From positions 1-44,317 of the IMG/VR virus record IMGVR_UViG_3300027792_000006: a stretch of DNA of 44,317 nt; one strand, written 5' to 3'. Origin of the DNA: a virus. Below the pieces are notes generated by a model, which worked only from the letters and a program-made list of their open reading frames with translations, searched no databases and was not told the origin of the DNA. Position 1 is the first letter of the stretch; every line of letters begins with the position of its first letter. Shown one piece after another: positions 29,891-38,591 of the stretch. A program made the translations under genes and the position numbers.

Positions 29891-30658
29891 TTAATTATAT
29901 GCCCCTAATTCTTTTAATGCCTCACTATAATCAGATAGCAATCGTGTTCGTATGATTACGTCTGCTGTTTCAAAAAATTTATAGCGCCTACGATATTGAG
30001 GTTGTTTGACAAACATTAATATGGGTGTGATTGATGATCCCCACTTGCCAAATGATGCACGTTTATAAATGCCCTGTGCTAAATGGCTTTTCTTGCTCCT
30101 TACTGCAAAGTATTGAAACCCTCTTATGCCTTTCTTTTTAGACCCTTTGGCTAATCGTGCTTTTCCTTTTGCAGTCATGTTTGATGAATACCCTCTTGTC
30201 ATTTCAGCAGCAGAAAAGAATGATAAAATCTGTCTGATTTGACCAACGCTCATATTGCCATATTGATCGATATTAGCGCCTTTGCCAGGTACTATTGACA
30301 TTCCCTTGGGTAGTATGCGGTATTGTTTTAGGGCAATTTCTGAGCGCTTATCATTTCGTTTTCCGCCAAATATTTGAGGGATTAAAATATTAGACGGTTT
30401 TGTTCCTTTACCCAAATCATCCGGCATGATAGTTGCGATAGGATTATTGCTTGTTGCCTTTTTTACAAGTAGGCTATTTAGCATATAGGATGTGGGTCGA
30501 TCAAATGATTTAATCATTTCAGATCGCAATGCATCCCAAACATGATATGCCGTTTTATTGATTCCATTGATTACTGCCTTTGAAATCATGCGTTGAACTC
30601 TATCGAGTCCTTTTACGGTTTCATCTATTCCAATCACATTAACTTTAATATAAATCAT
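29891..30658 (-). CDS. Minor tail component (gpZ-like)
   Basis: A 255-residue basic protein. It shows segments I recall from phage tail proteins: MLNSLLVKKATSN, NILIPQIFGGKRNDKRSEIA, YGNMSVGQIRQILSFFSAAE, GFQYFAVRSKKSHLAQGIYK and TPILMFVKQPQYRRRYKFFE. It is separated from the other tail genes by more than 11 kb, on the far side of the terminase. Its start overlaps the O-antigen-ligase-like gene by four bases. Confidence 0.75.
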   Translation of the reverse strand: MIYIKVNVIGIDETVKGLDRVQRMISKAVINGINKTAYHVWDALRSEMIKSFDRPTSYMLNSLLVKKATSNNPIATIMPDDLGKGTKPSNILIPQIFGGKRNDKRSEIALKQYRILPKGMSIVPGKGANIDQYGNMSVGQIRQILSFFSAAEMTRGYSSNMTAKGKARLAKGSKKKGIRGFQYFAVRSKKSHLAQGIYKRASFGKWGSSITPILMFVKQPQYRRRYKFFETADVIIRTRLLSDYSEALKELGAYN

Positions 30659-32355
30659 GAGTTTCCCTTTTTAAAAAACATTGCTTTTCGTTTTTCAGCT
30701 TTTTTTGTTCTTTTTTTATTTGCTTCATTTATCTTTGTCGTGACTTTTTTATACGATTCGGTTATGCTTTCAACCTTTTTAAGCCCTTCGTGAGCCGGAA
30801 GGTATCCCGGATAAAGAGATAGCGATTCATTAAAGGCGGTTTTGGCAAAATTCAGGAGTCCATTTTGCAAAGCAGCAACCCCAGCTAAATGCCATAATTG
30901 CCATTTTAAAATTGTCCCATCATAATAGAATATTGCCTTCAATGCGGATATAAGGCCTTCTATATGGTTTCGATAAAGCGCCGCATGATGCTGTAAATAT
31001 ATATTATTGGTAGGTTCTGCTTTTATGGTTTCAAGACTAAATTTTCCAATATTTTTCTTATCTTCTATTTTTGCGATATCTTCCAATTTTAAGAAATAGA
31101 AATTTCCTTTTAGTCTTTTAAAAACGAACAGATAGGCTATATACAAAATGACTGCGACGAGTATCAATCCCGGAAGAAAAGAAATCTGAATTGCCGCCTG
31201 TTGTAGAGTTGAATTTGCCCATAATGCCATAATCGGAAGCGCCGTAGCGCTTGTTCTGATGGAAAAGAAAAATGCCGAATTTACGATAACGGCAATGATA
31301 CCGCCAAATAAAAATGGATTCTGAGATAAGTTTGATAAAACCATGATTAAAATACCTACCCATAAAGCAAACCCAACAAAACCTATTTCCAATAGTGTTT
31401 CGATGTGATCATTGTGGGCTCGCTTTGCGGATAACGAAGGGTTTTTAGGCTTATCAATCAAATTACCTAATATTGTTGGATCTATCCTGTTCATTTCTGC
31501 TTGCGTATTAATTAGATGGTATCGAAAAGCTCTGGGTCCTAAACCAAACAATGGATATTTTTTGATCAATTCCCATGATGCTTTCCAGTAATAAATGCGT
31601 CCTAAAAACGAATCGTTAAGCATTTTGGAATAATGCTTTAACATGAATTTTATGATGAAAAAGAAAATGACAGCATCGGCAATTAATAGCCAATGCGATA
31701 AAAATTTAAACTGAAAGTATAAACCAATTGAGATAATACCTATCAATGTGCCTAACCACGCTGCCCGGCAGCGGGCAAAAAATAAAGCCACTGCAATCGG
31801 AATCACTCCAAAAAACCAAAAATAACTACTATAAAACGTGAGTGATAGGCCAATAAAAAAACACGGTGTTAAATAAGCGCCGATATAATTTGTGTTTCCC
31901 AGCCATGCAAAACACTTTTTAAATTTATAAAGTGTTTTTGTGTAGAATGGATCGATAAAATCCTTTGAAAAAAATTGCTGGGATAAACCATAGGCGGCCA
32001 TGAATGGGGCGGTAATGAAAACAGCAGTTAAAACATATTCAGCCGGCAAGCGAGAGCAAATTATAAAAAAATAAAACAACGAAAACCATCTTACCAGATC
32101 AAATATTGAATCGGTTTTGTTTATAGACCAAAGAATAGAAATTGTCAGCAGACATAAAAAATACAGGAACCAAATTCCGGCAGCACTGGTCACGTATGGG
32201 ATTTGCCCATATATGATTATATGATATAAAAGAGATCCGATCGATAAAATAGTTAGGACATGATTTTTAAAATCTTCCATTCCGAATAATCCGCGCATGC
32301 GTAGAATTGGAACAAGAATACAAGCCAAACCAACATAAATATAATCAATCATCAT
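30655..32355 (-). CDS. O-antigen ligase/polymerase-like membrane protein with TPR tail
   Basis: A 566-residue multi-pass membrane protein (about ten hydrophobic segments between residues 5 and 430). The Wzy_C/WaaL family motif is visible: WELIKKYPLFGLGPRAFRYH, then KRAHNDHIETLLEIGFVGF (about 305-325), where the His and the E..G..G pattern mark the periplasmic loop. The C-terminal ~150 residues contain TPR-like helices (GLISALKAIFYYD ... AKTAFNESLSLYPGYLPAHE). It would modify host surface polysaccharide, a known way for temperate phages to change receptors. Confidence 0.85.
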   Translation of the reverse strand: MMIDYIYVGLACILVPILRMRGLFGMEDFKNHVLTILSIGSLLYHIIIYGQIPYVTSAAGIWFLYFLCLLTISILWSINKTDSIFDLVRWFSLFYFFIICSRLPAEYVLTAVFITAPFMAAYGLSQQFFSKDFIDPFYTKTLYKFKKCFAWLGNTNYIGAYLTPCFFIGLSLTFYSSYFWFFGVIPIAVALFFARCRAAWLGTLIGIISIGLYFQFKFLSHWLLIADAVIFFFIIKFMLKHYSKMLNDSFLGRIYYWKASWELIKKYPLFGLGPRAFRYHLINTQAEMNRIDPTILGNLIDKPKNPSLSAKRAHNDHIETLLEIGFVGFALWVGILIMVLSNLSQNPFLFGGIIAVIVNSAFFFSIRTSATALPIMALWANSTLQQAAIQISFLPGLILVAVILYIAYLFVFKRLKGNFYFLKLEDIAKIEDKKNIGKFSLETIKAEPTNNIYLQHHAALYRNHIEGLISALKAIFYYDGTILKWQLWHLAGVAALQNGLLNFAKTAFNESLSLYPGYLPAHEGLKKVESITESYKKVTTKINEANKKRTKKAEKRKAMFFKKGNS

Positions 32356-35224: not shown

Positions 35225-37558
35225 CTAAAAAAGCTTTTGTTGATTCCTGGCCGCTTCAGCTGCTTGGATGTTTTTAACTGCTAAATCGAAATAACTCTGT
35301 TTTAATTCATGGCCAACGCCGCGCCGGCCAAGTCTGATCGCTTCAAATAGTTCCGAACCGACCCCAGCAAATGGCGTGTAAACCAAATCTCCCGGATTGG
35401 ACCATAGGCTCATCGCTCTTTCGATCGTATCCAACTGTAACGGACAAATATGCTTTTCATCTTGTTCACCGCGCCCTGCCCTACCGTTCAGAGTTTTTCC
35501 GTAGTCGATATCATCCCAAATCGGAGATGCCCACATCTGCCAGGTGTCCACCGTGATATTGCATTTGATCGGATGATCAGAGTCACCCGGCTTGCGAAAT
35601 ACAAGCAGATAATCAGGTAGCCCTACTCTACTCATAGCCGCATCCTTTTTAACCTGCTTATGGAGTAACCCAAGCGCCTTGGTGCGCTGCATTTCGGTTA
35701 CCGGGTTCTTCCAAATCGTGACACGAGAATGATAGATAAACCCGGCGCCCTCAAACACACTCCGAATCATGTTTGAGAAATCCCGCAGCCCGATAAACCC
35801 CTCTTTGCCCTTTTGAATCGGCAGATCCATGCAATGCACCGCCACATTGCGGCCGCGCCACATAACCCGGAATAGATCGTCAACCAAAAACCGAAACGCG
35901 GTTAAAAACTCCTGATAGTCTTTGGAATTGCCCATATCTTCAATGGAATCCGAGTATGTGTAGAGTTCCGCAAAGGGCGGGCTAAAAATACTAAACCCGA
36001 TGCTTTCATCTGGAATCGATTTGATCAATTGAACACAATCCCCGCGTTTAATCACGCAGTTCTCGCTCTCAAATTCTTGATCAGACAGGTATTCAAGGCA
36101 ATCCTTAAGTTTATTCATAACCGTTGACTCTTTCAAAACATCTAAATTACAAGCTGCTGTCATATGATTCTGCATCGATTCGAAATCCTCTTTCTTTCGC
36201 CGAACGCTCTCAATCACGTTCTGCATGGTGTCGGTGGTGATCAAATAGATATTAACCGGTTCCTTTTGCAAAAACCGATAGGACCGGCGGATAGACTGAT
36301 AAAGCGCCTCAAAGGAAAAATCCAGGGAGGCGAAAACCTGATTATGGCAGTTTTGGAAATTCAACCCGAACTGGGCGATCTTGCTTTTTGTGATCAAGAC
36401 CCGGAATTCATTGTTTGCAAAGCCAAGCAACCTCTCTTCTTTGACTTCGCGCTTATCACTGCCCCGGACCTCAACCGCACCCGGAATCAGCTTTTTCAAA
36501 AGATCCGCTTCTCCGTCTTGTTTCACCCAAACTATGAAATTTTCAGCGCTTGCGTTTACAATTTCCGCCGCCAGATGCATGCGCTCTTGCCGTGTCGATC
36601 TCAATTCGAGATTAAAATCAGTCGCGCTGACCGCTGTGTCATTGAAAAGCCGGCCGTTATCTCGTTTTGGCGTTTTGATTTGCTTTTCGATTAAATTTAA
36701 TGGCGGTAAATCGAACCCAGCCATAGGATAACCAATATCAGCCGGTTTATTCAGCATGACCGACCAGGTGGAAACAAACCGCCAAAAATCTTTGATTGCA
36801 TGCCCTTTCAAACGCCATTTGGCCGTCTCCCCGCCATCGTGCACAAAGTACATGGAAAGCATCTCGTTCCGGCTCATGACATTCAGGAATTCGGCATGAT
36901 TGCCCAGCTCCATAGGGTCATTCGGGCTCGGGGTTGCGGTACAGGCCAGTTTATAAGGTGTGTTTTGAAAATTCTGGATTATGGCGTTGCGGGTCTTACC
37001 TTCGAAGTTTTTTAGGATACTGGATTCATCCAGGACAACCCCTGCGAACGCGCCACAGTCAACGTTATCAAGCTGATCGTAATTGGTGATATAGATTCCG
37101 GGCACATCCTGGAAAACACCATCAGAAATACGGTTGACCAAATATCCAAACCTCTCCCCCTCCCGGATTGTCTGCCCGGATACGGCCAAGGGCGCCAAGA
37201 TCAAAACCGGATTGCTCGTATGTTCAGCCACATGCCGCGCCCATTCCAATTGCATGATCGTTTTACCCAGCCCACAATCGGCGAAAATGGCATACCGCCC
37301 GGCTTTCAGCGCCCGGGTGACAATATATTTCTGAAAATCAAATAGCGCTGGGTTTAAGACCAGAGCATCGAATCCGCTTTCCACACGCCGGCGCTGTTTG
37401 GTTTTGAGAAATTCGAAATAGGCTTCTGATCTTTTTGCTGATGTCGGCAAAATGATATTGGAAGGGCAACCCGGACCAGGGGTGTTAGGGACTGAATCCA
37501 AGGAGGGACTGGGATTCAATTGGTCCGGGTTGCCGTTGGGAAAAGCTTGGTTATGCAT
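35225..37558 (-). CDS. SNF2-type helicase fused to DNA methyltransferase
   Basis: A 777-residue fusion. The helicase part has Walker A ADCGLGKTIMQ (about 93-103), DEAH-like LDESS (176-180), CTATPSPND (motif III) and SIRRSYRFLQKEPV (motif VI). The second part is a beta-class amino methyltransferase: FSPPFAELY (motif IV at 526) and FAGVGSELFEA (SAM-binding, 730). SPPF favours N4-cytosine over N6-adenine. Between them lies the module TVMNKLKDCLEYLSDQ with an internal ATG (residue 481). It modifies phage DNA, probably with ATP-driven tracking. Confidence 0.9.
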   Translation of the reverse strand: MHNQAFPNGNPDQLNPSPSLDSVPNTPGPGCPSNIILPTSAKRSEAYFEFLKTKQRRRVESGFDALVLNPALFDFQKYIVTRALKAGRYAIFADCGLGKTIMQLEWARHVAEHTSNPVLILAPLAVSGQTIREGERFGYLVNRISDGVFQDVPGIYITNYDQLDNVDCGAFAGVVLDESSILKNFEGKTRNAIIQNFQNTPYKLACTATPSPNDPMELGNHAEFLNVMSRNEMLSMYFVHDGGETAKWRLKGHAIKDFWRFVSTWSVMLNKPADIGYPMAGFDLPPLNLIEKQIKTPKRDNGRLFNDTAVSATDFNLELRSTRQERMHLAAEIVNASAENFIVWVKQDGEADLLKKLIPGAVEVRGSDKREVKEERLLGFANNEFRVLITKSKIAQFGLNFQNCHNQVFASLDFSFEALYQSIRRSYRFLQKEPVNIYLITTDTMQNVIESVRRKKEDFESMQNHMTAACNLDVLKESTVMNKLKDCLEYLSDQEFESENCVIKRGDCVQLIKSIPDESIGFSIFSPPFAELYTYSDSIEDMGNSKDYQEFLTAFRFLVDDLFRVMWRGRNVAVHCMDLPIQKGKEGFIGLRDFSNMIRSVFEGAGFIYHSRVTIWKNPVTEMQRTKALGLLHKQVKKDAAMSRVGLPDYLLVFRKPGDSDHPIKCNITVDTWQMWASPIWDDIDYGKTLNGRAGRGEQDEKHICPLQLDTIERAMSLWSNPGDLVYTPFAGVGSELFEAIRLGRRGVGHELKQSYFDLAVKNIQAAEAARNQQKLF

Positions 37559-38591
37559 GCGTATCCTCTATTTGTTTGATAAACGTAAAAAATTGAAACG
37601 CCACTTGGGGCACGATTGCGTTACCGAGTCCTCGCAATCTGTCCACCCGATTGGGAACCCCATCACCCACTCTACAAAGGCGGGCTGCAACTTCAGGCCA
37701 CGGTTCTTGCCAATAACATTCAAGCAATTCAATTTGTCTTCTAATGAAAGTTGGTGACCCTTCATTTCCCTTCGCAAGCTGGCTGCTTTTGACGTTCCGC
37801 CATGATGCCCAAGATGTGTGTCCGGTGTCGGTAACATCCTGCTTATCACTGTGACCAAATCGTTTCCGTCGCTCCCTTCCCGGTTCTCTCTCGCATAATC
37901 CGGCCCGGATGACGTTCCCTTCGGAGTTGGCAACATCATTGAAATCTGTCCTGGAAGGCCGTTTCTCGGATCTCCCGATATCTCTCCCCGCTTCTCTGCA
38001 TCGTTCGCCCGGGGCGTTGCAAGCATGGCAACCTGCGTCACTAACGAATGTTTTCCCGCTATCTTGTTCGGGCATGGATAAGGCCCCCTGTCCGAGTCTG
38101 TCGCTACGCAAGTTCGCAATAATCCAGACTCGTTTTCGGGTATGCGGGGCGTTGACGCCGCAAGCTGGAATAATAAACGTCTGCGTTTTGTAGTCCGCAT
38201 TTTCCAAATCAATAAGCACTTGGTCGAGTTCCATTCCGATGATTCCAGGCACATTTTCTGCAATAACCCAAGCGGGCCGGACCTCGGAAATGATTCGGAG
38301 CATTTCCGGCCAGAGGAAACGGTCATCTTCCTTGCCTCTTCGCTTCCCGGCGCAAGAAAACGGCTGACAGGGGAATCCACCGGAAATAATGTCAACTGGT
38401 TTAAGGTCTCCTCCGCTTTTGATTCTTTTAATATCGCCATATCTTCTTGCTTTCGGAAAATGCTTTGCTAAAACCTTTTGACAAAACGCATCATTCTCGA
38501 TCTGCCAAACCGTTTCAATCCCAGCCCATCGCGCCGCCAAATCGAAACCGCCGAGACCGCTGAATAAAGAACCGTGAATCATTTCAAACAC
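37551..38591 (-). CDS. DNA (cytosine-5) methyltransferase
   Basis: A 346-residue enzyme. The motifs are SLFSGLGGFDLAARWAG (I, about 8-24), GGFPCQPFSCAGKRRGKEDD (IV, catalytic Cys), AENVPGI (VI), HTRKRVWIIA (VIII) and RLRGLGNAIVPQ (X). It adds C5-methyl groups to cytosine, protecting phage DNA from restriction. The target recognition region (about 165-290) is unusual in composition and is fully overlapped by a second long frame (37568-38440). It overlaps the fused helicase gene by eight bases. Confidence 0.92.
   Translation of the reverse strand: MFEMIHGSLFSGLGGFDLAARWAGIETVWQIENDAFCQKVLAKHFPKARRYGDIKRIKSGGDLKPVDIISGGFPCQPFSCAGKRRGKEDDRFLWPEMLRIISEVRPAWVIAENVPGIIGMELDQVLIDLENADYKTQTFIIPACGVNAPHTRKRVWIIANLRSDRLGQGALSMPEQDSGKTFVSDAGCHACNAPGERCREAGRDIGRSEKRPSRTDFNDVANSEGNVIRAGLCEREPGRERRKRFGHSDKQDVTDTGHTSWASWRNVKSSQLAKGNEGSPTFIRRQIELLECYWQEPWPEVAARLCRVGDGVPNRVDRLRGLGNAIVPQVAFQFFTFIKQIEDTHA
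37568..38440 (-). CDS. Nested alternative-frame protein inside the cytosine methyltransferase gene
   Basis: A 290-codon frame in +1 phase to the methyltransferase and wholly inside it. It carries recognisable protein motifs: MLATPRANDAEKRG, two MLPTP boxes (MLPTPKGTSSGPDY and MLPTPDTHLG), and near the end LQPAFVEWVMGFPIGWTD. The latter two I recall as a stand-alone phage protein family found near cytosine methyltransferases. The start has only a weak AAGAAG site, so expression is unproven, but the motif conservation in both frames is unlikely by chance. Confidence 0.55.
   Translation of the reverse strand: MAILKESKAEETLNQLTLFPVDSPVSRFLAPGSEEARKMTVSSGRKCSESFPRSGPLGLLQKMCLESSEWNSTKCLLIWKMRTTKRRRLLFQLAASTPRIPENESGLLRTCVATDSDRGPYPCPNKIAGKHSLVTQVAMLATPRANDAEKRGEISGDPRNGLPGQISMMLPTPKGTSSGPDYARENREGSDGNDLVTVISRMLPTPDTHLGHHGGTSKAASLRREMKGHQLSLEDKLNCLNVIGKNRGLKLQPAFVEWVMGFPIGWTDCEDSVTQSCPKWRFNFLRLSNK

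Follow-up and report, generated by a model that had tools for sequence, protein, structure and literature searches.

A gene nested in the +1 frame of a phage C5-cytosine methyltransferase probably encodes the DNA-recognition half of the enzyme

A single stretch of phage DNA very probably encodes one C5-cytosine methyltransferase as two polypeptides, of which the nested one forms the DNA-recognition half. We analyzed the 44,317-nucleotide IMG/VR virus record IMGVR_UViG_3300027792_000006 (the window), in which the gene for the catalytic chain (alpha) contains a second gene (beta) in its +1 frame. In sequence alignments, the alpha frame contains neither a target recognition domain (TRD) nor motif IX, both of these are provided by beta, and relatives of the enzyme join these parts in one chain. 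To our knowledge, long same-strand overlaps in which both frames are under selection have rarely been demonstrated in bacteria and their phages. The alpha/beta overlap is seen in phages and in the genomes of many bacterial phyla, and along its length coding constraint shifts from one frame to the other.

Results

The window carries phage genes for terminase gpA, a tail tube protein, and an S24-type repressor; all window coordinates given here are on the minus strand. The alpha ORF (37551-38591) encodes 346 amino acids when read from a GTG at 38591, and an ATG at 38582, which gives a protein of 343 amino acids and overlaps the stop codon of the upstream ORF in the ATGA configuration, is the likelier start. 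Alpha matched phrog_363 (E=4e-76) and Pfam DNA_methylase (PF00145; E=1.8e-42), the latter over residues 8-166 only, and its alignment to M.HhaI was confined to the part containing motifs I-VIII. The order of motifs in C5-methyltransferases, I, IV (PC), VI (ENV), and VIII, is preserved in alpha. Motif IV (GGFPCQPFS, including the catalytic PC) lies at 38355-38381, motif VI (ENVPG) at 38244-38258, and the motif VIII region (PHTRKRVWIIA) at 38115-38147; the residues invariant in the alignment are G72, P74, C75, and Q76 in the first, E112, N113, and V114 in the second, and R152 and R154 in the third. There follow a hydrophilic, apparently passive linker (residues 160-306; 37674-38114), which is encoded by the same bases as the beta modules, and motif X (GDGVPNRVDRLRGLGNAIVPQ; 37569-37667), which was conserved in alpha when beta was held fixed. 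The TRD and motif IX, due between motifs VIII and X, are missing from the alpha frame and present in beta.

The next gene in the operon (35225-37558) shares 8 nt with the end of the alpha ORF and encodes a 777-amino-acid protein in which SNF2/helicase domains (Helicase_C, E=2e-5) are fused to an N6/N4 DNA methylase (N6_N4_Mtase, E=2e-12). Since this methylase lies directly downstream of the C5 enzyme, a single operon of the phage appears to provide two activities that methylate DNA. Elsewhere in the window, 30655-32355 encodes 566 amino acids that include a Wzy_C O-antigen ligase domain (E=3e-18), possibly a surface-modifying cargo gene. The beta protein of IMG/VR contig 3300009082_000559 (L002) is 100% identical to that of the window, and the two records probably represent the same or a near-identical phage.

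A preliminary description of this DNA had pointed to a 290-codon ORF in +1 phase inside the cytosine methyltransferase. Such an ORF is indeed present at 37568-38440, running from an ATG to a stop codon, and it is this ORF that we propose as the DNA-recognition subunit, beta. The start of beta is uncertain, the candidates being the ATG at 38440, with a weak Shine-Dalgarno sequence, and a TTG at 38393-38395, with GGAGGAG at 38408-38414 and a spacing of 12 nt. The N-terminal domain of beta (R1; 38123-38377) lies over alpha motifs IV-VIII and is a proposed docking segment. It is followed by four modules, of which module 0 (LLRTCVATD...; 38027-38122) has a degenerate first box. Module 1 (MLATPRANDAEKRGEISGDPRNGLPGQISM; 37937-38026) has close copies on distant alpha backbones, module 2 (MLPTPKGTSSGPDYARENREGSDGNDLVTVISR; 37838-37936) belongs to a family common to mycobacteriophage and Gordonia phage enzymes, and module 3 (MLPTPDTHLGHHGGTSKAASLRREMKGHQLSLEDKLN...) occupies 37697-37837. 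The motif IX segment (LKLQPAFVEWVMGFPIGWTD; 37637-37696) comes last, and full-length single-chain methyltransferases have this segment in their main frame.

The motifs quoted in the preliminary description were found where it had placed them, FVEWVMGFPIGWTD in beta and GDGVPNR...RLRGLGNAIVPQ in alpha. Its impression that the beta motifs looked familiar was well founded: FVEWVMGFPIGWTD corresponds in position to C5-methyltransferase motif IX and resembles it, although the Arg-Glu found in the canonical TPRE is absent, and the MLPTP boxes mark the beginnings of recognition-domain modules. It had also seen family-like motifs in both frames; both are family motifs, with the correction that they belong to the same enzyme.

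Across the family, one to eight modules opening with xPTP occur per gene, with a median length of 36 amino acids. Modules that were at least 80% identical were found on alpha domains that were only 29-37% identical, indicating that modules have been exchanged. The RANDAEKRGE module was among the search patterns, which inflates its frequency and leaves its presence on distant backbones unaffected.

Beta matched phrog_1008 (E=5.3e-33, residues 10-270), and no significant match was found in Pfam or NCBIfam, nor any match in a profile search of the PDB. An AlphaFold model of beta alone, built from 13 sequences, was poor (pLDDT 47.6), and we therefore modelled a fused relative, L288, instead. L288 matched both phrog_363, the alpha family (E=1.7e-72), and phrog_1008, the beta family (E=2.9e-55), and covered positions 1-314 of 324 of Pfam DNA_methylase. 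Its AlphaFold model was of moderate quality (pLDDT 74, pTM 0.75), with low confidence over the module, and in a search with this model the top hits were M.HhaI and M.HaeIII (best E=5e-15), with a TM-score of about 0.55 to M.HhaI. These family and Pfam matches, together with the model, tie beta to the position of the TRD and motif IX without recourse to a structure of beta itself.

To gauge how often an open beta frame would arise by chance, we shuffled the synonymous codons of alpha, keeping the alpha protein fixed, and counted stop codons in the beta frame from the first conserved beta residue to motif IX. For the window gene alone, 4.55 stops were expected, and the probability of finding none was 0.0024. 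The median expectation was 5.1 stops per gene among 114 nonredundant homologues (clusters at 70% identity), 33 of which had a beta-frame start codon with a Shine-Dalgarno sequence of at least 5 nt, compared with 6.1 expected. Because these 114 homologues had been recruited via beta, they are a biased sample, and loci fetched via alpha provide less biased support. Using the alpha catalytic domain, we fetched 80 phage loci, 5 of which end before the region concerned; among the 75 informative loci, the motif IX segment lay in the +1 frame in 74, in the +2 frame in one (L258), and in the alpha frame in none. The +1 frame of classical HhaI-like C5-methyltransferases (n=29) contained at least 8 stops (median, 15). 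We conclude that the overlap is not a product of chance and that beta is a real gene with wide conservation.

We next measured synonymous change as the share of codons for identical residues that differed synonymously, in 40 pairs of homologues with no member shared. In alpha, this share was 0.595 before the start of beta and 0.305 over motifs IV-VIII, which share their bases with the beta N-terminal domain, and it was lower over those motifs in all 40 independent pairs (Wilcoxon, 1.8e-12). Single-frame relatives also had less synonymous change over motifs IV-VIII (9 of 9 independent pairs). They are not a clean control, because the two that we inspected, L288 and L289, still encode one module and the beta N-terminal domain in +1, although such remnants explain the reduction only partly. 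We therefore used the 29 HhaI-like enzymes as the negative control instead, and in these the corresponding values were 0.500 and 0.571, with a reduction in only 5 of 13 pairs. Thus, the synonymous change that the preliminary description had proposed to check was halved over the overlap in the alpha/beta family and not in classical C5-methyltransferases, and its suggestion that a DNA-modification locus here contains a sizeable overlapping gene is supported by both the stop-free frame and the synonymous constraint.

Conservation of each frame was assessed by scoring relatives whose alpha catalytic domains were less than 45% identical against codon-permuted sequences. Over motifs IV-VIII of the window, alpha scored 77.3 bits compared with 18.2 bits for the null, and beta scored 30.0 compared with 17.5 bits (z 6.3). 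Over the modules, the scores were 36.7 compared with 17.3 bits for beta (z 8.2) and 18.5 compared with 17.3 bits for alpha (z 0.8), such that alpha had no conservation there beyond a by-product. With alpha held fixed, the family median z for beta was 4.6 over motifs IV-VIII and 6.0 over the modules, and the third frame, which served as an inner control, gave 2.7 and 1.6 for the same regions. Over motifs IX and X, in a comparison that included close relatives, both frames exceeded the null. Judged by these comparisons, both the alpha and the beta frames are under coding constraint, and over the modules beta appears as the conserved frame and alpha as a passive open frame.

The two chains are divided differently in different members of the family. 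In layout A, that of the window, alpha carries motifs I-VIII and X, and the nested beta carries the modules and motif IX; this layout accounted for 166 of 190 classified loci, a set that was not dereplicated. In layout B (L005, L007, L017, and L035), alpha ends after motif VIII, and beta has the modules, motif IX, and motif X; the break in mycobacteriophages is like that in layout B, with a frame-0 ORF that stops just past motif VIII and a +1 ORF that runs to the end of the enzyme. Layout C has a single frame, in which the modules and motifs IX and X follow motif VIII, as in gp4 of Gordonia phage Stultus, gp22 of prophage T49-1, and about nineteen further viral contigs; L029 and L032 are among the single-chain relatives. 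The beta N-terminal domain is missing from the main frame of the single-chain enzymes. In layout D (L290, L291, L292, L293, L294, and L295), alpha contains motifs I-VIII, IX, and X, and the +1 ORF, which consists of the N-terminal domain and xPTP modules only, stops where the motif IX region begins. The presence of motif IX in the alpha frame of these six loci implies that motif IX is not essential to beta. A genome scan returned loci with titles from Bacillota, Pseudomonadota, Bacteroidetes, Acidobacteria, Planctomycetes, Verrucomicrobia, and others, many of them metagenome bins.

Some members do not fit these layouts neatly. L288 (2001-3029) and L289 (2001-3044) have modules in the main frame, yet their +1 frame keeps the beta N-terminal domain and one module, and these enzymes may draw recognition modules from both frames. 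In L171, motif IX is in the alpha frame, and in L258 it is in the +2 frame, with motif X in another ORF; the frames of these two members are swapped as if by a single indel, for which a sequencing error is a possible cause.

We weighed three other explanations for these observations. Some similarity is common in overlapping frames of conserved proteins, and even the third frame, which is not used, had slight conservation across motifs IV-VIII (z 2.7), so that the conservation of beta might be a by-product of alpha motifs and codon bias. We rejected this explanation, which we consider extremely improbable, on the basis of the codon permutations, the synonymous change, and the classical negative control: over the modules of the window, it is beta (z 8.2) and not alpha (z 0.8) that is conserved; synonymous change was halved in 40 of 40 pairs, with no drop in the classical enzymes; and single-chain enzymes encode the same protein segment in their main frame. 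Alternatively, beta might be expressed but have a role other than target recognition, for example, in anti-restriction or regulation, its overlap with the enzyme being incidental. Its want of a significant relative in Pfam or the PDB would allow such a role, but the modules and motif IX fill the TRD position in single-chain enzymes, and alpha lacks both in its own frame, which makes this explanation very unlikely. Homologues of beta were found only in C5-methyltransferase genes, which was one of two parts of the refuting outcome named in the preliminary description, the other being undiminished synonymous change. Such confinement is expected of an enzyme subunit, and the segment does recur in the main frame of single-chain methyltransferases.

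The remaining alternative is programmed ribosomal frameshifting, in which a +1 shift after motif VIII would lead the ribosome into the modules and join alpha and beta in one chain. The natural occurrence of single-chain versions and the arrangement in mycobacteriophages, where the +1 ORF goes on to the end of the enzyme from a frame-0 ORF that has stopped, are in keeping with this idea. However, the beta N-terminal domain, which lies upstream of any shift, is itself conserved as protein, and beta-frame starts with Shine-Dalgarno sites are more frequent than expected. Furthermore, motif X stays in frame 0 in most members, so that a second shift back would be required. We therefore regard frameshifting as unlikely and favor two separately translated chains, with beta as the recognition half.

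Discussion

In the enzyme that we propose, alpha (frame 0) would be the catalytic chain, with the AdoMet-binding and catalytic motifs I-VIII, a long hydrophilic linker, and a C-terminal motif X. Beta (+1) would contribute its N-terminal domain, a tandem array of xPTP modules of ~36 amino acids at the position of the TRD, and then motif IX. The two chains would be translated separately from one mRNA and then form one methyltransferase, with the beta N-terminal domain as the candidate for docking on alpha. Each module may steer methylation to its own site, as in the multispecific enzymes of Bacillus phages (PMC8936443), and methylation of several sequences could protect the phage from several host restriction systems. 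The methyltransferase activity and site specificity of alpha/beta are predicted from sequence. The preliminary description had not covered the view of beta as the missing recognition half, the lack of motif IX in the alpha frame, or the precedent of M.EcoHK31I.

In M.EcoHK31I, too, the small chain is encoded within the gene for the large chain, in an overlapping frame. According to PMC3404938, which cites Lee et al. 1995, this enzyme (YGGCCR) consists of two polypeptides, with motifs I-VIII and X in the larger and motif IX in the smaller. The large chain of the window also has motifs I-VIII and X, and its small chain has motif IX. However, the predicted TRD of M.EcoHK31I was assigned to the larger subunit (PMC3404938), whereas in the window the TRD position is filled by a tandem array on the nested chain. 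Because the TRD assignments differ, we do not classify the window enzyme as an EcoHK31I-type member, only as one that works like it. M.AquI (CYCGRG) is a C5-methyltransferase that naturally consists of two polypeptides, the split lying in the variable region (PMC3404938). Its layout, in which the second chain contains both motif IX and motif X, is matched by the layout B relatives L005, L007, L017, and L035, whereas the window has motif X in alpha and genes that overlap almost completely. The multispecific C5-methyltransferases of Bacillus phages (SPR, H2, and others) have several tandem TRDs in one enzyme (PMC8936443). Their modules of about 40 amino acids resemble the four of the window in tandem arrangement and size (family median, 36 amino acids), but these enzymes are single chains, whereas the window array is on the nested +1 chain.

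Since M.EcoHK31I and M.AquI already consist of two polypeptides, the principle is not new; what look like features of a new variant are the tandem exchangeable recognition array in a nested frame and the variable split points. Our literature searches, which covered few subscription journals, found no nested C5-methyltransferase gene beyond these two enzymes. On a broader scale, we lean slightly toward the view that alpha/beta enzymes represent a class of C5-methyltransferases, widespread in phages and bacteria, in which specificity resides in a nested +1 gene. Its exchangeable modules would be swapped, lost, and multiplied while the catalytic chain merely stays open, and the array, either alone or together with motifs IX and X, would have moved between the nested and the main frame several times to give split, AquI-like, and single-chain forms.

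This work suggests that, where a phage C5-methyltransferase has been annotated from the alpha gene only, the protein is in many cases an inactive half that needs coexpression of beta, which, if true, bears on cloning, methylome prediction, and anti-restriction work. It also offers a proposed function for a family that has had no label other than "DNA methyltransferase." Annotations commonly describe both of the overlapping genes as "DNA methyltransferase" or "DNA methylase" (e.g., in NC_048718, NC_041909, and MN310542). The beta family, phrog_1008, is named DNA methyltransferase though it has no catalytic motifs, and the annotations state no recognition role. The nesting itself has caught the attention of some annotators, as in Paenibacillus phage Shelly, where the phrog_1008 gene is annotated as "g55 internal gene."
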